DNA from: a virus
Strand: one strand, 5' to 3'
Length of the DNA stretch: 64,000 nt
Virus record (IMG/VR): IMGVR_UViG_3300034062_003925
Coordinates: 1-64,000 of that record
Shown: positions 43,163-61,106 of the stretch, in pieces
How positions within the stretch are numbered: the first letter of the stretch is position 1
Layout of the letters: each line of letters starts with the position of its first letter
Notes under the pieces: generated by a model
What the model was told of the DNA's origin: nothing
The model's input: only the letters and a program-made list of their open reading frames with translations
Database searches by the model: none
Position numbers and translations under genes: made by a program

Positions 43163-43395
43163 TACAAAGATTTGCGGTATTATCGGACTCATTAGTTGAT
43201 ATATTTCCTAAGGCAAAATCTGTTGTTGTGTTTTGTTTAAATGATGAAGATTTTAATAGAACCAAAGCCCAAGTAAATAATTTTGATAATAATACTACTC
43301 AATTTAAAATTGATATTTCAGGAACTGAATTTATTTTTTTGAAGGATAAGTTGTTGAACTCCTCTGAAGATAAGATTTCTCAAACCCCATTTTAA
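43129..43395 (+). CDS. Hypothetical protein (88 aa)
   Basis: An 88-residue alpha/beta protein (FAVLSDSLVDIFPKAKSVVV, then TEFIFLKDKLL). Its last 65 bases are antisense to the end of the minus-strand gene 43331-43978. The start overlaps the preceding gene. Not recognised. Confidence 0.65.
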   Translation: MEKNKEGVNGVIQRFAVLSDSLVDIFPKAKSVVVFCLNDEDFNRTKAQVNNFDNNTTQFKIDISGTEFIFLKDKLLNSSEDKISQTPF

Positions 43396-43978
43396 CTAGT
43401 AGTTCATAAAGATATTTTCTTTGAGGGGTTGAGTAATCCTTTACTAGTAAACAATCCTTTCTACCATCATCATTAAATTTTTTTGTTAAAATATCGATAA
43501 ATCTTTCAGATTCGTCAGATGTTTTTAATGTAAATAAATTAAATTTGTCATCGTTTTGTACGATGATTTTGTTATTTAGTTTCGATATTAACTTAAATCC
43601 TGTATGGTCTAAGTATTGTTTAATGAACTGACGTGTATCAATCTTTTTATTTGTTGTATAATCTAAAAACAATTCCTCAATTCGATATCTTGTAATATTA
43701 ATCATAGTAAGTTCAGAGTCATCTAAAGAGACTTTAACTTGTCTTCCATAATCATCTTTCATATATAAAGATGAGGGGAACGATGAGGACCGTTCGACTA
43801 ATGATAGTTCATATTCTGATACTACACCATTTTCCATAACTTTATCATAAATCACCTCATCACTTTCTTTAACAAGTAATTTATAATACTCAAAAGCCTT
43901 TTTATGTGTCTTGAATTTATTGATTATTTTCTTTTTTACTTTATTCTTAAATAGAATAACCTGATAGGTATCATTCAT
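43331..43978 (-). CDS. Hypothetical minus-strand protein (215 aa)
   Basis: A lone minus-strand gene, convergent with and overlapping the plus-strand gene ending at 43395, and divergent from dnaJ. Charged alpha/beta protein: N-terminal YQVILFKNKVKKKIINKFKT resembles a phage YxVxLFxx plus lysine domain, middle SLYMKDDYGRQVKVSL, C-terminal LLVKMGFEKSYLQRS. No motif suggests an enzyme. It may be an independently transcribed early gene. The overlapping antisense 3' ends could let the two messages regulate each other. Confidence 0.75.
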   Translation of the reverse strand: MNDTYQVILFKNKVKKKIINKFKTHKKAFEYYKLLVKESDEVIYDKVMENGVVSEYELSLVERSSSFPSSLYMKDDYGRQVKVSLDDSELTMINITRYRIEELFLDYTTNKKIDTRQFIKQYLDHTGFKLISKLNNKIIVQNDDKFNLFTLKTSDESERFIDILTKKFNDDGRKDCLLVKDYSTPQRKYLYELLVKMGFEKSYLQRSSTTYPSKK

Positions 43979-44025: not shown

Positions 44026-44952
44026 ATGAATACAGAAAATTTTTATCAAGTGTTGGGTGTCGATGAAAAAGCGACACAAGAAGAAATTAAAAAGTCCTAT
44101 AGAAAAATGGCGATTGAACATCACCCTGACAAAGGTGGGAATGAAGAAACGTTTAAAAAAATATCCGAAGCTTATGATACGTTAGGTGACGAGAATAAAA
44201 GAAGACAATACGATAATCAAAAAAATAATCCATTTGGAGGTTTTGGTGGTGGAAATCCTTTTGAAGATTTCTTTAATTCTGGTTACCAATCTAGACGAAG
44301 AACCGCACCTGATAGTGTTATCGATATAACTGTTGGCACATTAGAATCATTTAATGGTTCCGATAAGATTATTACATATAGTCGAAAACACGGTTGTAAT
44401 ACTTGTAATGGAACGGGTGGAGATAAAAAAACATGTATTAAGTGTAATGGTGGTGGATATACTACTGTGACGATGGGAACAGGTTTATTTACTCAAGTGT
44501 TCAGACAACCATGTAATGATTGTAGAGGTGAAGGACAAGTCTTTAAAACAAGATGTGGGGTTTGTAATGGGAGTGCGACAATGACTGAAATGGAAACCAT
44601 TAAAATAAAGTTACCTCATGGTGTGGATGACGGACAGTTCTTCAAGATGCAAGGTAAGGGAGACTACAATAACGGTGTTTATGGTAATTTAGTTATAAGA
44701 GTTAAAATGGTGCCCGAAGGTAACTTTGAGAAGAGTGAGAATGATTTGGTATATAATGCGTTTTTAACTTTGGAGGATTTAAGTAAGGACAATTTAGAAA
44801 TACCACATCCATCTGGAAACATATTGATTAATTTACCCGAAGATTTTGATACGTCAAAACCCTTAAGAGTTAAATCGAAAGGGTTTAAAAGTAATGGTGT
44901 TGGGGATTTGTTTGTTAAGTTATTTGTGAAGTTTAAAAGGTCTAAAAATTAG
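44026..44952 (+). CDS. dnaJ: DnaJ-type co-chaperone
   Basis: 308 residues, DnaJ family type I. J domain: residues 4-65 with HPD at 33-35 (EHHPDKGGN), which stimulates host DnaK. A Gly/Phe-rich linker follows ([16 protein letters not shown]). The zinc domain has four motifs: CNTCNGTG (about 124), [16 protein letters not shown], and CGVCNGSA (degenerate in the last two positions). A C-terminal substrate domain is present but short, so the usual dimerisation tail is missing (bacterial DnaJ is about 370 residues). It may recruit host DnaK to virion assembly or replication. The 3' end overlaps the convergent gene by 11 bases. Confidence 0.93.
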
Positions 44953-45085: not shown

Positions 45086-45190
45086 TTGTTTCTTTTTTAT
45101 AATAATATAGGAGATTTTGGATTTTATCAATAAAATTGTCGGAATTATTTATTTTTGACACACTTTTCTTATTTTTTGGGATATATTATC

Positions 45191-46024
45191 ATGAATAAAA
45201 TAATCAATTTCACACCAACAGGAACACAAACGACAAGAGATAATTCTTTTGCTCCGTTATTACCATCTGAAATAATTGATGAGGTTCATGAGGCGTATGA
45301 ATATGGTATTACGATGGTGCATATTCACGCCAGAGACCCTGAGACATTAAATAATAGTAGTGACAAAAATCACTATAGACCCATTATAGAAGGGATTAGA
45401 AAACATTGTCCTGATTTATCTATATGTGTATCTTTAACTGGTAGATTCGAACCAAATATTGACAGAAGGACTGAAGTCTTAGAATTACTTCCCGATATGG
45501 GGTCATTAACCATGTCCTCATTAAATTTCCCGACAGGTGAATCAATTAATTCTCCTGATACTATTTTGAAATTAATCCAAAAAATGGATGAATTTGGTGT
45601 TATTCCTGAAATCGAATGTTTTGATTCAGGAATGTTAAACTACACCAATTATTTGATTAAAAAAGGTGTCTTAACGGGTCCTCATTACATTAATGTTATA
45701 TTGGGTAATATGTATAACGCACAATCAGATGTTGCATCACTCAATTCGATAATTCAAAATAAACCTAATAATAGTTTATTATGTTTGGGTGGTATAGGTA
45801 AAGAACAATTGTCGTCTAATCTGTTAGGTTTATTATATGCTGACGGAATTAGAATTGGTTTGGAGGATAATTTATACTACACAGATAAAGTCAAAACAAC
45901 TAATGTTAAATTATTACAAAGAATTCGTAAGATAATGGACGAAATGGGATTGGGTGTTATATCTCCATTAAATTTTAAAAACTTAGGTTATGGAAATAGA
46001 AAAATTAACAATACTTGGATTTAG
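45191..46024 (+). CDS. BKACE/DUF849-type beta-keto acid cleavage enzyme
   Basis: A 277-residue TIM-barrel enzyme of the BKACE (DUF849) family. The start is at ATG 45191 (MNKIINFTPTGTQ); an upstream TTG would add only a low-quality stretch. Seen: VHIHARD (zinc ligands His44 and His46), a mid-barrel PEIECFD, GGIGKEQL and a late RIGLEDNLYY. These Zn enzymes condense a beta-keto acid with acetyl-CoA and release acetoacetate plus a new CoA ester. It overlaps the acyltransferase gene by 35 bases, so CoA ester supply for an acyl transfer is possible. Substrate unknown. A C-terminal part is slightly short compared with bacterial members of about 300 residues. Confidence 0.85.
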   Translation: MNKIINFTPTGTQTTRDNSFAPLLPSEIIDEVHEAYEYGITMVHIHARDPETLNNSSDKNHYRPIIEGIRKHCPDLSICVSLTGRFEPNIDRRTEVLELLPDMGSLTMSSLNFPTGESINSPDTILKLIQKMDEFGVIPEIECFDSGMLNYTNYLIKKGVLTGPHYINVILGNMYNAQSDVASLNSIIQNKPNNSLLCLGGIGKEQLSSNLLGLLYADGIRIGLEDNLYYTDKVKTTNVKLLQRIRKIMDEMGLGVISPLNFKNLGYGNRKINNTWI

Positions 46025-46631
46025 TGAGGCGACATTAACAATGTTATTAGATATTTTGAATTCAAAAGGTCTTTATCCATCCATTGAAATCATCAATAAC
46101 TTGGGATTATTACCAACAAAAAAATACGAACATCCCAAGTTCAATATCGAAATTATTAATGATGTGGATATCAATAACAAAATGGTTACCTTGGGAGTTG
46201 GTAAGGTTAAAATGAGAAAAATAGTTAGTAATGTATTCGAGGTAAATAAAGACACTCTTTTGGTTAACCTAATATCGGATAACTCTGATATATCTCAGAC
46301 AGTTAAATTAGGTAGGGGGATAGTTGTTAATACTTTGGTAAGTATTGCTGGTCACACAACGATTGGTGATTTTGTATTTATTAATAGAAATGTTAGTATT
46401 GGTCATCATACCGTAATTGGTGAATACACAACAATAAATCCTGGTGTTAATATCGCTGGTAATGTAGTAATTGGTGAAGGTTGTCAAATTGGTATTGGAA
46501 CAAATATTATTGATGGTATTAAGATTGGTAATAATACCATTATTGGTGCGGGTTCAGTAGTTACTAAAGACATTCCTGACAATGTGGTTGCATATGGAAA
46601 CCCTTGTAAAATAATTAGAAAAAATGGCTGA
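45990..46631 (+). CDS. NeuD-like hexapeptide-repeat acyltransferase
   Basis: 213 residues. The N-terminal Rossmann-like domain (LTILGFSEATLTMLLDILNS) is followed by a left-handed beta helix: VNTLVSIAGHTTIGD, NRNVSIGHHTVIG, NPGVNIAGNVVIGEGCQIG, ending IGAGSVVTKDIPDN and VAYGNPCKII. This is the NeuD/PglD architecture, which transfers an acetyl or other acyl group from CoA to a sugar amine. Catalytic His candidates are in SIGHHTVIG. It overlaps the upstream BKACE gene by 35 bases and the aminotransferase by 8, giving an obvious path from amine to acylated amino sugar. Confidence 0.87.
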   Translation: MEIEKLTILGFSEATLTMLLDILNSKGLYPSIEIINNLGLLPTKKYEHPKFNIEIINDVDINNKMVTLGVGKVKMRKIVSNVFEVNKDTLLVNLISDNSDISQTVKLGRGIVVNTLVSIAGHTTIGDFVFINRNVSIGHHTVIGEYTTINPGVNIAGNVVIGEGCQIGIGTNIIDGIKIGNNTIIGAGSVVTKDIPDNVVAYGNPCKIIRKNG

Positions 46632-47253
46632 AGGGGTATATAAAATAACTGAGGAGTTTGAAAAAAAGATTTCCGATTATACTGGTGCTCCATATGTGGT
46701 GACTGTTGACAATCAAAGCAATGCGTTGTTTTTGTCATTATATTATGAAAACATAAAAGGAAAAGAAATTGAAATCCCTAACAGGACATACCCATCAGTA
46801 CCTTGTGAAATTATACATGCTGGTGGTAAAGTTAAATTTTATAAAATTGATGGTGAAAAATTGAAGGGGGCTTATCAGTTAAAACCAACAAAAGTATGGG
46901 ATTCGGCATTAAGATTTACCGCTAATATGTTTATACCTAATACGCATATGTGTATTTCATTTACGGGGCCATATAAACATTTAAAACTATCAAAAGGTGG
47001 GGCAATACTAACCGATGATATTAAGGCATATGAATGGTTTAAACGGGCTAGGTTTAGTGGTCGTGGAGAATGTTCTTATCACGATGATGAATTTTATATG
47101 TTAGGTTGGAATTTTTATATGATGCCTGAATTATCGGCTAGAGGTTTATTAATGATGAATCAATTTTATGATTATGATGGTAATAAAAAGATGAATGATG
47201 ATATTGAATTACCATATCCTGATTTATCTAAGTTTAAAATATATACACAATGA
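46624..47253 (+). CDS. Short DegT/DnrJ/EryC1-like sugar aminotransferase
   Basis: 209 residues, PLP fold type I. Recognisable DegT blocks: VTVDNQSNALFLSL (for SGTxAL), IPNRTYPSVPCEIIHAGGKV, KVWDSALRF (PLP-binding Asp), CISFTGPYKHLKLSKGGAIL (catalytic Lys probably in GPYK), and LGWNFYMMPELSARGLL. It ends soon after this, so the C-terminal small domain of the usual 370-residue enzymes is absent. Either it is a minimal or inactive form, or the small domain is supplied otherwise. It overlaps both neighbours (8 and 4 bases). Role: transamination of a keto-sugar, by family. Confidence 0.8.
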   Translation: MAEGVYKITEEFEKKISDYTGAPYVVTVDNQSNALFLSLYYENIKGKEIEIPNRTYPSVPCEIIHAGGKVKFYKIDGEKLKGAYQLKPTKVWDSALRFTANMFIPNTHMCISFTGPYKHLKLSKGGAILTDDIKAYEWFKRARFSGRGECSYHDDEFYMLGWNFYMMPELSARGLLMMNQFYDYDGNKKMNDDIELPYPDLSKFKIYTQ

Positions 47254-47873
47254 AATTACACATTATAACCCCACTTTATCGTTTTAATTTATTAGAACAA
47301 GTTTATAATTCAATACTCATAAATGACGATATAACTTGGCATATCTCAAAATCAAATAAACGAGAAGAATTGGATTATGATTTTTTAAAAAAAGATAATA
47401 GAATTAGATTATATAATGTTGATTGTGAAGATACTGATACAACTTCTAAAAGAAACGCCGTTTTTGATAATATTAAAGATGGGTATTTTTGTTTATTAGA
47501 CGATGATACTATTTTTCACGAAAATATGTATATGAAATATGTTGATTGTGTAGAACATAATTTTATTGGGATGTTAATAGGTGAACAATTAAATTACTGC
47601 GGAAAATTAAGATTAATAGCAAGTAAACCTGTTTTTAATAAAATTGATACTGGAAACGTTTTATCACACTATTCATGTCTTAAAGAACTTAGATGGCCTT
47701 CAAAGCACATTGAAGGAAAAAATCATAAGGACTTTTTATTTTGGGATTCGGTATATGAATTTTATGGGAAAAAATGCGGAATATGGAATCAACCAATATC
47801 CTATTATAATAAATTAAAAACAAATCCTGTTAATCAGGAATATGGAAAAAAATTTACAGATAGAATATCTTGA
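47250..47873 (+). CDS. GT2-like glycosyltransferase with replaced C-terminus
   Basis: 207 residues. N-terminal KLHIITPLYRFNLLEQVYNS and CLLDDDTIFHENMYM (DDD metal motif, near residue 85) mark a GT-A family 2-like transferase. The start overlaps the aminotransferase stop (ATGA). The last residues (QEYGKKFTDRIS) and the 43 codons after the in-frame TGA read as the end of an HNH endonuclease, so the natural C-terminus was replaced by recombination with, or decay of, an HNH gene. The GT part up to about residue 195 (IWNQPISYYNKL) looks whole, but activity is uncertain. It probably attaches the amino sugar made by the three upstream enzymes. Confidence 0.8.
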   Translation: MKLHIITPLYRFNLLEQVYNSILINDDITWHISKSNKREELDYDFLKKDNRIRLYNVDCEDTDTTSKRNAVFDNIKDGYFCLLDDDTIFHENMYMKYVDCVEHNFIGMLIGEQLNYCGKLRLIASKPVFNKIDTGNVLSHYSCLKELRWPSKHIEGKNHKDFLFWDSVYEFYGKKCGIWNQPISYYNKLKTNPVNQEYGKKFTDRIS

Positions 47874-48005
47874 GATAATTGGGGTGAGTGGCATATTGAC
47901 CATATAAAACCTGTCTCAAAGTTTGATAAATCAGAAAAAATATCTATTATTAACTCGTTAGATAATCAACAACCATTATGGACGGTAGATAATTTAAAAA
48001 AATAA
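47874..48005 (+). pseudogene. HNH endonuclease C-terminal fragment
   Basis: 43 codons in the same frame as the glycosyltransferase, directly after its TGA: DNWGEWHIDHIKPVSKF, then NQQPLWTVDNLKK and TAA. It mirrors the intact HNH protein at 9769 (DNYGEWHIDHIIPIS, LRPLWAEENLKK). In the intact gene the residue just before DNYG is Trp (MSWDNYG). Here the codon at that place is TGA (RIS-TGA-DNWG), so a TGG to TGA change is the simplest explanation. No start codon or zinc knuckle remains, so it is a remnant. Confidence 0.8.
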
Positions 48006-48016
48006 AATAATATAAT

Positions 48017-48871
48017 ATGTGTGTATCCTATGTAGGTGGTAAATCTAAAATTGCTCCACAATTAATAATTCCAAATATACCTAAAGACATTGAGACATTT
48101 GTCGAGTCGTTTAGCGGTCAATTTTGGACGTTTTTTAAAATGAATTTAGAGGATTACCCAAATCTTAAAACGGTAGTCTATAATGATTTTAATCCATTGA
48201 ACTATAATATGTATCAATGTTTACAGAAGAACCATCAAAGATTACTTGAAGAATGTGAAAAATTAGTGGTTCAAGAAAAGGAGGTTTTTCCGACTAATCC
48301 GATTTGTGGTGAACAATTTGTCAGGTTTCAGTCTGAAATATTTGATGAAAGTTTCAGAGTAGAGGATTACGATTATGTTGTTGCCGCAAAATATATTTAC
48401 GTTTTAACTCAAGTGTTTTCGGGGTCAAATCCTTCTAAATCAAAGTTTATTGATTTAAAAGGTAAATACCATTCAAAATTTACTTCATTTAAAAATAAAT
48501 TAAAAAAACCTGAGTGGCAAAAAATGTTTGAAAGAATTACTTTCGTTGAAAATATGGATTTTCAAGAGGTGATTGAGAAATATGACGCTCCGACAACTTA
48601 TTTTTATGTTGACCCGCCGTATTATATTGTTGGAGAAGGGAATTATTATTCTAACCACGATTTTGGAAGACAAGACCACGAAAGATTGGCGAATTGTTTA
48701 AAAAGTATTAAAGGGAGGTTCTCATTATCGTATTATGATTTTCCAATATTATCTGAATGGTTTCCTAAAGACCAATATAAGTGGGAGACAAAGGAATTTG
48801 CTAAGGCTGCTGCTGCAAAAAAAGGTAAACCTCAAACTATGGGAGAAGAACTTTTAATAATGAACTACTAA
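48017..48871 (+). CDS. D12-class N6-adenine DNA methyltransferase (Dam-like)
   Basis: 284 residues. SYVGGKSKIAPQLI near the start is the AdoMet-binding motif (for Y-x-GGK), NDFNPLNYNMYQ corresponds to the second conserved block, and TYFYVDPPYYIVGEGNYYSN near residue 195-215 is the DPPY catalytic motif with Dam-type order. It methylates adenine N6, protecting phage DNA from restriction or marking it. No paired restriction gene is adjacent. It starts 11 bases after the HNH remnant. The second methyltransferase at 60240 is of another class. Confidence 0.87.
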   Translation: MCVSYVGGKSKIAPQLIIPNIPKDIETFVESFSGQFWTFFKMNLEDYPNLKTVVYNDFNPLNYNMYQCLQKNHQRLLEECEKLVVQEKEVFPTNPICGEQFVRFQSEIFDESFRVEDYDYVVAAKYIYVLTQVFSGSNPSKSKFIDLKGKYHSKFTSFKNKLKKPEWQKMFERITFVENMDFQEVIEKYDAPTTYFYVDPPYYIVGEGNYYSNHDFGRQDHERLANCLKSIKGRFSLSYYDFPILSEWFPKDQYKWETKEFAKAAAAKKGKPQTMGEELLIMNY

Positions 48872-48924: not shown

Positions 48925-50310
48925 ATGAGAATTACATCACTATTATCTAATTTAATCTTGGAACAATCAAGATTTCAAGTATTATTTGACAAAATGGTTA
49001 AGCCGCCTGTTAGTCCTGATAAGAAAAAGACTAAGGCAAAAGGTTTAATGGACTTCGAAACATTAAAAACAATTATATTTGCTGACCCAACAACTAAAGC
49101 TCCTGAAGGATTTAACGTTGAAGGTGCTACAGAAAATGATATGGAACCTGTCAAAGTTGGAAAATATGCTCAATGGTTATTGAAAAACTTTGTTAATCCT
49201 AGTATGTCTGAATTAGAATTACCTGCGGACCAAGAAATTGACCGTGATAGTAAAGTATATAAAAACGCTACTATGGAATTCAGAAAATTGTTCCTTGAGG
49301 ATTTATATAAGACTACTGATGATTTGAAAAAATTTGAAAGAGCGAAAGCGTATCTTCCACAAGAACAAAGAGATATTAATAAGTTCACACCAAGAACTTT
49401 ATTTGATACGTTACAAAATTTCCAAATCCCCGAAAAGAAAAAAGCGGAGATGGAGAAAAAAGAAGCTAAGAAATCGAGAGAAGGATTCAATCACGCGGGT
49501 GGTGAGATTATTTACGAAGGTCCTAAGTGGACAATGATTCGTATTAAGGACCAAGGTCAAGTTGGTAAAGATGCTGCTATTTATTATGGTGGTTTCCATG
49601 AATATGACCAAGGAGAATCAAGATGGTGTACATCATCACCAGGTTTATCTTATTTCAACGGATACATTAAAGATGGTCCATTATATGTAATATTCCCTAA
49701 CGATGATAAAGGGTTAGTTGGTAAAAAGACAGGATTACCTCAAGAGAGATTCCAATTCCATTTTCCATCAAATCAATATATGGATAGACATGATAGACAA
49801 ATCAATCTTGTTGAATATCTAAACGGACCTATGTCTGATTTAAAAGAGTTCTTTAAACCTGAGTTCGCAAAAGGTTTGGTTAACGCAGCTGGTACTAAAG
49901 TTGAAATTAACTATCCTGACAGTTCGGCAGGTAAATTCGTTGCGTTATACGGATTTGATGATTTATTCGACAGTTTACCTCAAAATATTGAACATTTATT
50001 GATTAATAATAAATCTAAAGAAGATATTGCGTTAGTTGTACCTGAGTCATTAGGTCGATTTACATCATTACAAGCGTTGTTATTACAAAATATTGTTAAG
50101 TCATTACCTGAAAGTATTGGTAAATTAACTAACTTAAATTTCTTAGCTTTACCTAATAACAAACACTTAGTTTCATTACCTGTTGGAATCGGTAATATTG
50201 ATGGGTTAGCTTTTATTAACTTGAAAGACAGTAACCCTAATGTTAAGATACCACCAGCATTACAAGAAAAATTAAGTAATGAAGGTAATGGATTTTATTA
50301 TGTGACTTAA
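48925..50310 (+). CDS. Leucine-rich-repeat protein with WCT-type domain
   Basis: 461 residues. A short N-terminal leader (ITSLLSNLILEQS) resembles the LTES leaders of other proteins. A helical region follows, then a central domain with GESRWCTSSPGLSYFNGYI and GPLYVIFPND (about residues 232-255). This pattern occurs in unassigned phage proteins and loosely resembles PcfJ-type domains. The last 110 residues are leucine-rich repeats (LPESIGKLTNLNFLALPNN, then LPVGIGNIDGLAFINL), each about 23 residues, as in LRR surface or effector proteins. It could be packaged and injected, with the LRR binding a host target. No enzyme activity can be named. Confidence 0.78.
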   Translation: MRITSLLSNLILEQSRFQVLFDKMVKPPVSPDKKKTKAKGLMDFETLKTIIFADPTTKAPEGFNVEGATENDMEPVKVGKYAQWLLKNFVNPSMSELELPADQEIDRDSKVYKNATMEFRKLFLEDLYKTTDDLKKFERAKAYLPQEQRDINKFTPRTLFDTLQNFQIPEKKKAEMEKKEAKKSREGFNHAGGEIIYEGPKWTMIRIKDQGQVGKDAAIYYGGFHEYDQGESRWCTSSPGLSYFNGYIKDGPLYVIFPNDDKGLVGKKTGLPQERFQFHFPSNQYMDRHDRQINLVEYLNGPMSDLKEFFKPEFAKGLVNAAGTKVEINYPDSSAGKFVALYGFDDLFDSLPQNIEHLLINNKSKEDIALVVPESLGRFTSLQALLLQNIVKSLPESIGKLTNLNFLALPNNKHLVSLPVGIGNIDGLAFINLKDSNPNVKIPPALQEKLSNEGNGFYYVT

Positions 50311-58347: not shown

Positions 58348-58519
58348 TACTAAATTACTTTTTTCAAAATTAAGACAACCATTGGATTTGAAATTTATCA
58401 GTTCTAATATCTTAAAGACGAATCAATTTGAGGCTAAAGAATATTTGGATGGTTTGGTTGAAGATGGAATCCTTAGTAAAGAAAATAATTACTACACTAT
58501 AAAAAATAAAAACAAATGA
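58331..58519 (+). CDS. Winged-helix-like small protein (62 aa)
   Basis: 62 residues starting at ATG 58331 inside the preceding gene. SSNILKTNQFEAKEYLDGLV followed by DGILSKENNYYTIKNK looks like a winged helix-turn-helix of the MarR/ArsR size, the last part being the beta wing. It directly precedes and overlaps (4 bases) the glutamine synthetase gene, so it may regulate that gene, but no binding site was identified. Weak fold call. Confidence 0.55.
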   Translation: MEKLFNTKLLFSKLRQPLDLKFISSNILKTNQFEAKEYLDGLVEDGILSKENNYYTIKNKNK

Positions 58520-59634
58520 CAAAAATTGAATACATATGGCTTGATGGTTATACGCCTGAACCAAATTTAAGAAGTAAAATTAAAGTTGTTGAAGAACAAA
58601 ACTGTGAATTACATAAAATTCCTGAATGTAATTTTGATGGGTCATCAACACTACAGGCGGAAGATAATAATTCTGATTGTATTTTAAAACCTGTGAGAGT
58701 TTATTGGACAAATGTTGACACATCTAAAATATACGTTTTATGTGAGGTTATGAATCCTGATGGGACTCCTCACGAAACTAATAGAAGAGCACAGTTAGGT
58801 GACGAAGATAATGATATGTGGTTTGGATTTGAACAAGAATATTTTATCCGTGAAGGTAAAAACAAACCAGTGTTAGGACATAGTGAAGGGTTGATTGAAG
58901 GTCAAGGAAAATACTATTGCGGTGTAGGTTCTAATGTTGTTGGTAGAGATATTGTTGAAGAGCACATGGATTTATGTTTAAATATGGGAATCACCATTAC
59001 AGGTGTGAACGCTGAAGTGGCTTTAGGACAATGGGAATATCAAGTATTCTCAAAAGGTAAATTAAAGGCTGGTGACGACCTTTGGATGTCGAGATATCTA
59101 ATGGAAAAACTATCTGAGAAATATGGATATTATATTGAATACCATCCTAAACCGATTAGACATGGTGAATGGAATGGGTCAGGATTACACACAAACTTTT
59201 CGACAGATATAATGAGAAATAAGGGTGGGGAGGAATACTTCAACGTAATATTTAATTCTTTGGAATCAAGAAGATATCAACATATTGAAGTTTATGGTTC
59301 AGATAATGAACTAAGACTTACAGGTAAATACGAAACACAATCAATTGATAAGTTCAGTTGGGGGATTAGTGACCGAGGAGCATCTATCCGAGTTCCTGTG
59401 TCAACGGCTAAAGAGTGGAAAGGTTATATTGAAGATAGAAGACCAGCATCAAATGCAAACCCTTATGACATAGTTAAAGTTATTTCTGAAACGATTGATA
59501 TGGCTAACGAACTTCTCGCAACAACCCACAACATGTATAGTAATGTTAGTGTTAAAAACTTTGATGAGGTTGCTAAAAAATACAATGGAATCCTTACTAC
59601 CGAAGAATTATTAAACGAATATAAAAAAGATTAA
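58516..59634 (+). CDS. glnA: Glutamine synthetase, GSII-type
   Basis: A 372-residue full-length glutamine synthetase. Diagnostic blocks: IEYIWLDGYTPEPNLRSKIK (GSII start), CNFDGSSTLQAE, GFEQEYFIREG, YYCGVGSNVVGRDIVEEHMD, GVNAEVALGQWEYQ, IEYHPKPIRHGEWNGSGLHT, WGISDRGASIRVP, and RRPASNANPYDIV. These include the metal and ATP binding residues (the Glu of FEQEYF and AEV, His of GSGLHT, Arg of RRPASNANP). It makes glutamine from glutamate, ammonia and ATP. The type is common in Bacteroidota and eukaryotes. No adenylylation loop or N-terminal extension is seen. It is an auxiliary metabolic gene, likely to boost glutamine for nucleotide synthesis. It overlaps the upstream gene by 4 bases. Confidence 0.95.
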   Translation: MTKIEYIWLDGYTPEPNLRSKIKVVEEQNCELHKIPECNFDGSSTLQAEDNNSDCILKPVRVYWTNVDTSKIYVLCEVMNPDGTPHETNRRAQLGDEDNDMWFGFEQEYFIREGKNKPVLGHSEGLIEGQGKYYCGVGSNVVGRDIVEEHMDLCLNMGITITGVNAEVALGQWEYQVFSKGKLKAGDDLWMSRYLMEKLSEKYGYYIEYHPKPIRHGEWNGSGLHTNFSTDIMRNKGGEEYFNVIFNSLESRRYQHIEVYGSDNELRLTGKYETQSIDKFSWGISDRGASIRVPVSTAKEWKGYIEDRRPASNANPYDIVKVISETIDMANELLATTHNMYSNVSVKNFDEVAKKYNGILTTEELLNEYKKD

Positions 59635-60029: not shown

Positions 60030-60243
60030 AGAACAAGTAGACCACCCGAGTCATTATGGGGGAAAAAATAATGAATATGAAGCCATTAAGGTTATTGATG
60101 CTTGGAACTTGGGATTCTCACTTGGGAATACTGTGAAGTATATTTCAAGAGCAGGGAAAAAAGAAACAGATAAAGAGTTACAAGATTTGAAAAAGGCTTT
60201 ATGGTATTTAGAACATCACATTAAAACATTAGAAAAGAAATGA
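60010..60243 (+). CDS. DUF3310 (SaV-like) small protein
   Basis: 77 residues with the full DUF3310 pattern: VDHPSHYGGKNNEYEAIKVI, DAWNLGFSLGNTVKYISRAG, then ELQDLKKALWYLEHHI. This family is common in phages of many hosts and is a helical protein of unknown function, often linked to nucleotide metabolism. It begins inside the preceding gene (20-base overlap) and overlaps the methyltransferase start by 4 bases. Confidence 0.87.
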   Translation: MENQKNKEQVDHPSHYGGKNNEYEAIKVIDAWNLGFSLGNTVKYISRAGKKETDKELQDLKKALWYLEHHIKTLEKK

Positions 60244-61106
60244 TAGAAAATTATACGGGTAAAGTTATTAATGGTGATTGTATTGACATAATGTCAAAAA
60301 TGCCGATAAACTCAATTGACTTAATTGTGACTAGTTGTCCTTATGGTGTTGGGATTAATTATGATGTTCATAATGATGATGTATATTTTGATGAATATCT
60401 AAAATTTACTAAAGAATGGTTAACTGAAGCGTATCAGTTATTAAAAGACGATGGTAGAATTGCGTTAAATATCCCCTACGAAATAAATAGACAAGATAAA
60501 GGTGGTAGAATTTTCTTTTGTTCTGAAGTCTATCAAGTTATGAAAAGAATTGGTTATAAGTTCTTCGGTATCGTTGACCTTGAGGAAGACAGTCCCCATA
60601 GAAGTAAGACGACTGCTTGGGGTAGTTGGATGAGTCCATCCAGCCCTTATATTTATAACCCAAAAGAGTGTGTTATATTAGCCTACAAACATAAACATAT
60701 TAAGACTGTTAAGGGAGAACCCCAATGGAAGGGAGTTCCAACTGATATTGAACAAGAGGATGGAACAATTAAGAAAAAAGTTGTTTATGAGGATGTGGAT
60801 AAGAAAGAGTTTATGGAATTGGTGTTTGGGCAATGGAAATATTTTGCTGACACTAAATCCTTAACCAAGGCAACATTCTCAATGGATATCCCTACAAGGG
60901 CGATTAAGATATTATCTTATAAGAATGATATTGTTCTTGACCCATTCAACGGAAGTGGAACGTCATGTGTTGCTGCTGAGATATTAGATAGGAGATGGAT
61001 TGGGATTGAATTAAGTCCTGATTATTGTGAAATATCTCGTAAACGAATACAAGCATTTGTTGATGATAAAAAACAAAGTAAATTAGTTTTTGAAGAAGGG
61101 GTTTAA
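60240..61106 (+). CDS. Beta-class DNA methyltransferase (N4-cytosine or N6-adenine)
   Basis: 288 residues. Motif order is beta class (catalytic motif first): TSCPYGVGIN (31-40) is motif IV with SCPY in place of S/DPPY, and DPFNGSGTSCVAAEI (from about 234) is the AdoMet motif I. IGIELSPDYCEI is the usual region after it. The SxPY form points to N4-methylcytosine, but the Cys replacing the first Pro is unusual and may affect activity. The gene is coupled to DUF3310 and ends in a terminator. It probably protects DNA from host restriction. The target sequence is unknown. Confidence 0.87.
   Translation: MIENYTGKVINGDCIDIMSKMPINSIDLIVTSCPYGVGINYDVHNDDVYFDEYLKFTKEWLTEAYQLLKDDGRIALNIPYEINRQDKGGRIFFCSEVYQVMKRIGYKFFGIVDLEEDSPHRSKTTAWGSWMSPSSPYIYNPKECVILAYKHKHIKTVKGEPQWKGVPTDIEQEDGTIKKKVVYEDVDKKEFMELVFGQWKYFADTKSLTKATFSMDIPTRAIKILSYKNDIVLDPFNGSGTSCVAAEILDRRWIGIELSPDYCEISRKRIQAFVDDKKQSKLVFEEGV

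Follow-up and report, generated by a model that had tools for sequence, protein, structure and literature searches.

What might a phage do with four overlapping genes that resemble a pathway for an acylated amino sugar, and where would the acyl group come from? The genes occupy positions 45191–47873 of the window, a 64,000-nucleotide stretch of an IMG/VR virus record (IMGVR_UViG_3300034062_003925). The full record is 74,966 bases long, contains primase, SbcCD-like, and sigma-factor genes, and is from a tailed phage. An earlier note, made from the sequence alone, had named the four products as a BKACE, a NeuD-like acyltransferase, a DegT protein, and a glycosyltransferase (GT). These assignments hold, with Pfam profiles for three of the products and a predicted GT-A fold for the GT. 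The features are listed in Table 1.

Table 1. Features of the cassette and its 3’ edge, in window positions.
Feature	Position	Strand	Basis
BKACE (DUF849, PF05853), 277 aa	45191..46024	+	Pfam E=8.7e-62
NeuD/PglD/PerB-like left-handed beta-helix acyltransferase (LbH), 213 aa	45990..46631	+	Hexapep 4e-17
Minimal DegT-type PLP protein, 209 aa	46624..47253	+	Pfam DegT 5.8e-13
Small soluble GT-A glycosyltransferase, 207 aa	47250..47873	+	Predicted fold, DDD motif
Probable HNH endonuclease remnant through GT stop	47817..48005	+	Translation WHIDHIKPVSKF, weak Pfam HNH

Consecutive genes overlap by 35 (BKACE/LbH), 8 (LbH/DegT), and 4 (DegT/GT) bases. The BKACE ORF begins at the ATG at 45191, with no need for the mechanically assigned TTG start at 45155. 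Purifying selection acts on all four genes (dN/dS 0.08–0.24). This selection and the recurrence of the genes in relatives argue that the cassette is not a chance assembly, and the dN/dS values rule out passenger or decaying genes. A promoter and terminator scan returned hits no more numerous than in shuffled sequences.

We favor, at a probability of roughly 0.55, reading the cassette as a phage glycan-acylation operon, in which a host keto-sugar is aminated, N-acylated, and transferred. The host would make a 4-keto (or 3-keto) 6-deoxy nucleotide sugar, and the minimal DegT-type PLP enzyme would aminate it. BKACE would convert a beta-keto acid and acetyl-CoA to an acyl-CoA with release of acetoacetate, and the LbH would use this acyl-CoA to acylate the sugar amine. 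The small GT-A enzyme would move the acylated sugar onto a growing glycan. From the protein families, their sites, and the gene linkage described below, we infer the supply of acyl-CoA by BKACE to the LbH, the transaminase role of the minimal DegT, the kind of acyl group, and the acceptor.

The BKACE matches Pfam PF05853 over residues 4–260 with 209 bits against a cut-off of 24.8, and its best NCBIfam score is 171 bits against a cut-off of 382. Alignment with Kce places Zn ligands at H44, H46, and E225 and catalytic residues at E142, R221, D226, and S81. The Kce counterparts of H44, H46, E225, E142, R221, and D226 are His46/48, Glu230, Glu143, Arg226, and Asp231. E142 also aligns with E171 of BKACE15, the catalytic base of that enzyme (PMC11961710). 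These active-site residues are invariant or nearly so among 49 phage and cellular members, and the gene has a dN/dS of 0.10–0.14. A degraded BKACE active site, which the earlier note had named as evidence that would count against its proposal, is ruled out by the conservation of all key residues.

BKACEs convert beta-keto acids to CoA esters (PMC11961710), while the DUF849 member BsfD performs C-acetyl transfer and not CoA-ester formation (PMC12871164). Following PMC12871164, Phe in place of Tyr145 of Kce (Phe144 here) was considered as a marker of divergent chemistry, but it was rejected as diagnostic because Phe is also present in 31 of the 32 generic BKACEs sampled. The phage BKACE shares with Kce and BKACE15 the TIM-barrel family, the Zn ligands, and the catalytic Glu and Arg, but it falls in a separate clade that is linked to polysaccharide genes and has characteristic residues at two positions. 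Position 83 is S/T in this clade and Gly in 31 of 32 other BKACEs. Position 13 is Gln in 53 of 55 viral BKACEs, V/I/L in the cellular part of the clade, and Glu (Glu14) in Kce. These differences suggest that the substrate of the phage BKACE probably differs from that of other BKACEs.

The LbH scores 146 bits against TIGR03570 (NeuD/PglB/VioB acetyltransferases), for which the cut-off is 160.8. By this score it is related to the curated subfamily, yet lies outside it. Its closest solved relative by profile is the perosamine N-acetyltransferase PerB (1.8e-32). Residue H139 is invariant in 31 sequences and is presumably at the position of the catalytic His of PglD.

The DegT-type protein matches Pfam PF01041 with 49 bits against a cut-off of 19.8. 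It is 209 aa in length, compared with about 370 aa for a normal member; the C-terminal domain is absent and the middle is shortened. The claim that it is a DegT aminotransferase stands as to family and retained PLP residues, but the protein is a half-size form and not the normal enzyme. T55, Y56, D93, S112, K118, and N163 are invariant in an alignment of 31 sequences. From family knowledge and an alignment with the full DegT of a related viral contig (L005), we take K118, D93, the stacking aromatic Y56, S112, and N163 to be the residues that hold PLP. The AF2 model has a pLDDT of 91 and a pTM of 0.89, and Foldseek matches it to sugar aminotransferases with a TM of 0.64 on the query and 0.38 on the target. 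Perosamine synthase is among the closest solved relatives. The full-length DegT fold with a C-terminal small domain was not found in the 209-aa protein. The absent domain and the target TM indicate a DegT-like function at most, rather than a canonical PF01041 member.

The small size raises a second reading, in which the minimal DegT serves as a PLP dehydrase like ColD or E1, a racemase, or a structural protein instead of a transaminase, and the amino sugar that the LbH acylates comes from the host. The missing domain is one reason to consider it, as the C-terminal domain of DegT enzymes normally helps form the active site, and we know of no activity for a DegT protein of such small size. The ColD and E1 dehydrases are also among the Foldseek matches, and about 12 of the 55 viral contigs with BKACE and LbH have no DegT of any kind nearby. 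E1 and ColD, however, have His where DegT transaminases have the PLP lysine, and in this protein the lysine, the aspartate, and the aromatic stacking residue are all invariant in 31 sequences. In addition, a full DegT occupies the slot of the minimal DegT in contigs L005 and L019. We consider this second reading improbable and retain transamination as the candidate role.

The GT falls below the Pfam cut-off for Glycos_transf_2 (PF00535; E=0.044, 14.2 bits against 23.3). Its AF2 model has a pLDDT of 91, the best Foldseek matches are SpsA and other GT-A enzymes (E=6e-10), and the DDD motif is invariant in 21 sequences. The predicted GT-A fold and the invariant motif rescue the sub-threshold Pfam match as a GT, and the predicted fold is assigned with confidence to GT-A, near SpsA. 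No relative of this GT was found in INPHARED. Homology to relatives stops at about residue 189, and the last 18 or so residues are not shared. The translation of the frame that continues past the GT stop (TGA, 47871–47873) looks like the last part of an HNH endonuclease (Pfam HNH E=0.0046, 17.5 bits, below the cut-off of 21.4). This probable remnant is outside the pathway and may point to a homing element that once bordered the cassette.

Two scans yielded 55 viral contigs with a BKACE 62–94% identical to that of the phage, except for a truncated copy at 54%. A member of the same LbH family is close to BKACE in all 55 contigs and nearly always overlaps it. A short DegT is present in 40 contigs, and a full DegT replaces it in two (L005 and L019). 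The GT family of the cassette is present in 23, and another GT-like gene is located just upstream in 30. WbqC and a sulfotransferase occur in five contigs each (by Pfam, one representative of each). The distance matrices of BKACE and LbH are correlated (r=0.76, p=0.001), whereas those of BKACE and the short DegT are weakly so (r=0.19). The difference suggests that the BKACE-LbH pair and the short DegT are separate modules, exchanged separately.

A tree was constructed with 45 distinct viral BKACEs, drawn from phage-type peptide patterns and excluding loci L280–L291. They form one clade with support of 100/100 beside Bacteroidota sequences. A scan with a cellular-type BKACE turned up further viral BKACEs, and a single viral acquisition was rejected on that ground. 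The sequences indicate that BKACE probably entered viruses at least twice. No BKACE of this type was found in the 50,697 phage records of INPHARED.

In a second viral group (L280–L283, three near-identical), the gene after BKACE encodes a GNAT acyltransferase. Pfam Acetyltransf_9 is just above its cut-off in the representative tested (L281). The pair is flanked by two tail-like genes of about 1,200–1,300 codons, one with a SPRY domain. The same BKACE-GNAT order is seen in L013, which is labeled as a Thermoplasmata (archaeal) MAG and, given its phage-like look, may be viral. An acyltransferase partner in this group too argues that BKACE feeds acylation.

These neighborhoods bear on simple N-acetylation, the alternative in which the LbH uses acetyl-CoA and BKACE works elsewhere, for example in acetoacetate/acetyl-CoA metabolism or in BsfD-like beta-dicarbonyl chemistry. 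Such an enzyme would be in keeping with PerB, PglD, and VioB, as most characterized LbH sugar acyltransferases are acetyltransferases, and the chemistry of DUF849 does diverge in BsfD (PMC12871164). Short DegT-LbH pairs without BKACE are also far more common than those with it: among the 69 distinct loci in the best 80 of at least 598 short-DegT loci (L198–L277), an LbH is within 4.5 kb in 61 and BKACE in six. Against it, none of the 55 viral contigs has BKACE but no LbH, the distances of the two covary, and in the second virus group BKACE is likewise paired with an acyltransferase. We therefore give simple N-acetylation only a small chance and favor acylation with a BKACE-derived acyl-CoA.

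The minimal DegT itself was confirmed in at least 598 IMG/VR stretches by the viral contig scan, a spread that would make the synthesis or editing of amino sugars common among phages. In the cultured Flavobacterium phage immuto, a short DegT (70% identity) precedes an LbH and an epimerase within a cluster of GT genes. A 29% relative is located within a GT cluster of a Synechococcus phage. Locus L279 (Synechococcus phage S-SCSM2R, 225862–238443) contains a distant minimal DegT, a radical SAM enzyme, 2OG oxygenases, an inosamine amidinotransferase, and several GTs. Among 395 Bacteroidota genomes, only G300 has a short-DegT match at E<=1e-10, and a profile search of 198 Bacteroidota genomes gave none at E<=1e-20. 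The order at the G300 locus is BKACE-LbH-GT2-short DegT. Its short DegT (L089; G300:C1, 11652–12293) is on a 3.15-Mb contig with ordinary-looking neighbors.

Cellular relatives of BKACE, at 38–50% identity, occur in Bacteroidota, Bacillota, Planctomycetota, and Pseudomonadota. The cellular clade members sit in surface-polysaccharide loci. An LbH is within 6 kb of BKACE in 18 of 27 cellular clade members and in 0 of 32 other BKACEs (Fisher p=7e-9); these counts refer to the 72-row clade that holds the viral BKACEs and are approximate, because genomes were sampled, loci were cut at about 6 kb, and ORFs were mechanical. Five of the nine members without an LbH form a separate subgroup with a 450-aa frame (L094–L098), and contig ends cut off three more (L007, L011, and L013). 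FdtA, DegT, LbH, and BKACE are found together in L090, L093, L158, and L160, with FdtA Pfam E-values of 1.7e-35, 4.6e-24, 2.4e-35, and 5.2e-43, respectively. The linkage of the clade to LbH genes, and in these four loci to FdtA and a full DegT, is what would be expected if BKACE supplied the acyl group of an N-acylated amino sugar.

The suggestion that bacterial counterparts occur in surface-sugar loci is thus borne out, as BKACEs of the same clade adjoin LbH genes there. The proposal that the phage set makes and attaches an N-acylated amino sugar fares well as to the kind of product, given the cellular clade with LbH and the four loci with FdtA and DegT, but the set is not self-sufficient. 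No match to the epimerase/dehydratase family (PF01370) was found in the 75-kb record, which may be incomplete, and no FdtA was seen among the phage proteins scanned. The keto-sugar must therefore come from the host or from an unseen gene.

As for the acceptor, we lean slightly toward a phage structural protein over host LPS. The lean comes from the soluble proteins of the cassette (maximum 19-residue hydropathy of 1.31, with no membrane protein among the four), from the failure to recognize a flippase, polymerase, or acyl-carrier gene nearby or among the scanned proteins, and from the BKACE-acyltransferase pair of L280–L283 between large tail-like genes. The same observations count against host-surface remodeling, in which the acylated sugar would be placed on host LPS or capsule and block superinfection, and which differs from the favored reading in the acceptor only. 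The cellular homologs in surface-polysaccharide loci do speak for remodeling, and the pelagimyophage authors proposed such a change of the host surface for their own GT genes (PMC7029224). We judge it somewhat unlikely. Of virion, host surface, and DNA, the last is the least likely target. DNA hypermodification is weakly disfavored because no match to the thymidylate-synthase/hydroxymethylase family was found in the phage.

The cassette can be compared with several known systems. The Fdt/Qdt pathways to dTDP-Fuc3NAc and dTDP-Qui3NAc (FdtA isomerase, FdtB DegT transaminase, FdtC/QdtC acetyltransferase) likewise combine a DegT with an LbH N-acyltransferase, and the four cellular loci above unite their genes with BKACE. 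The phage differs in having no detected FdtA or dehydratase, a DegT of half the size, and an added BKACE as the presumed acyl donor. The perosamine pathway (PerA transaminase, PerB N-acetyltransferase) supplies the closest solved relative of the LbH, but PerA is a full enzyme of about 370 aa, unlike the minimal DegT, and to our knowledge the pathway has no BKACE. Phage sugar cassettes are already known. The marine phage islands of pelagimyophages, cyanophages, and immuto have a similar, variable content of GT, methyltransferase, DegT, and LbH genes; the present cassette differs in its BKACE, of which no counterpart was found among the INPHARED phages.

No paper combining 3-keto-5-aminohexanoate cleavage enzymes with polysaccharide biosynthesis was found in the literature searched, subscription literature lying outside it. 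BKACE-fed acylation and the minimal DegT appear undescribed there, and their novelty is provisional. A broader proposal, at slightly less than even odds, is that glycan N-acylation in both bacteria and phages draws on an undescribed BKACE clade as its dedicated source of acyl-CoA, and that phages combine this clade with a minimal DegT of about 200 aa, an unusually small fold-type-I sugar aminotransferase found in hundreds of viral genomes. The known roles of BKACE enzymes are mainly catabolic. If the tie to surface-sugar loci is true, the clade would have an anabolic role, and new N-acyl sugars would be expected in bacteria as well as on phages. Should the minimal DegT be active, it would show how little of the fold suffices and provide a small enzyme for study. 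The cultured pair of Flavobacterium LMO8 and immuto offers a system in which the minimal DegT-LbH part can be tested directly.

Other genes in the window were also identified. Upstream of the cassette are a 215-aa gene on the minus strand (43331–43978) whose product weakly matches BstA abortive-infection proteins (PHROG E=0.011), and a DnaJ with J, zinc-finger, and C-terminal domains (44026–44952); a DnaK-like gene is present in the relative contig L005. Two DNA methyltransferase genes are located at 48017–48871 and 60240–61106 (D12 class; PHROG DNA methyltransferase). Directly 3’ of the first is a gene for a 461-aa protein with a leucine-rich-repeat-like C-terminus (48925–50310). A glutamine synthetase of 372 aa is encoded on the plus strand at 58516–59634 (Pfam Gln-synt_C 1.7e-20, Gln-synt_N 2.8e-10), 11 kb from the cassette, and could provide the amino donor for a transaminase.
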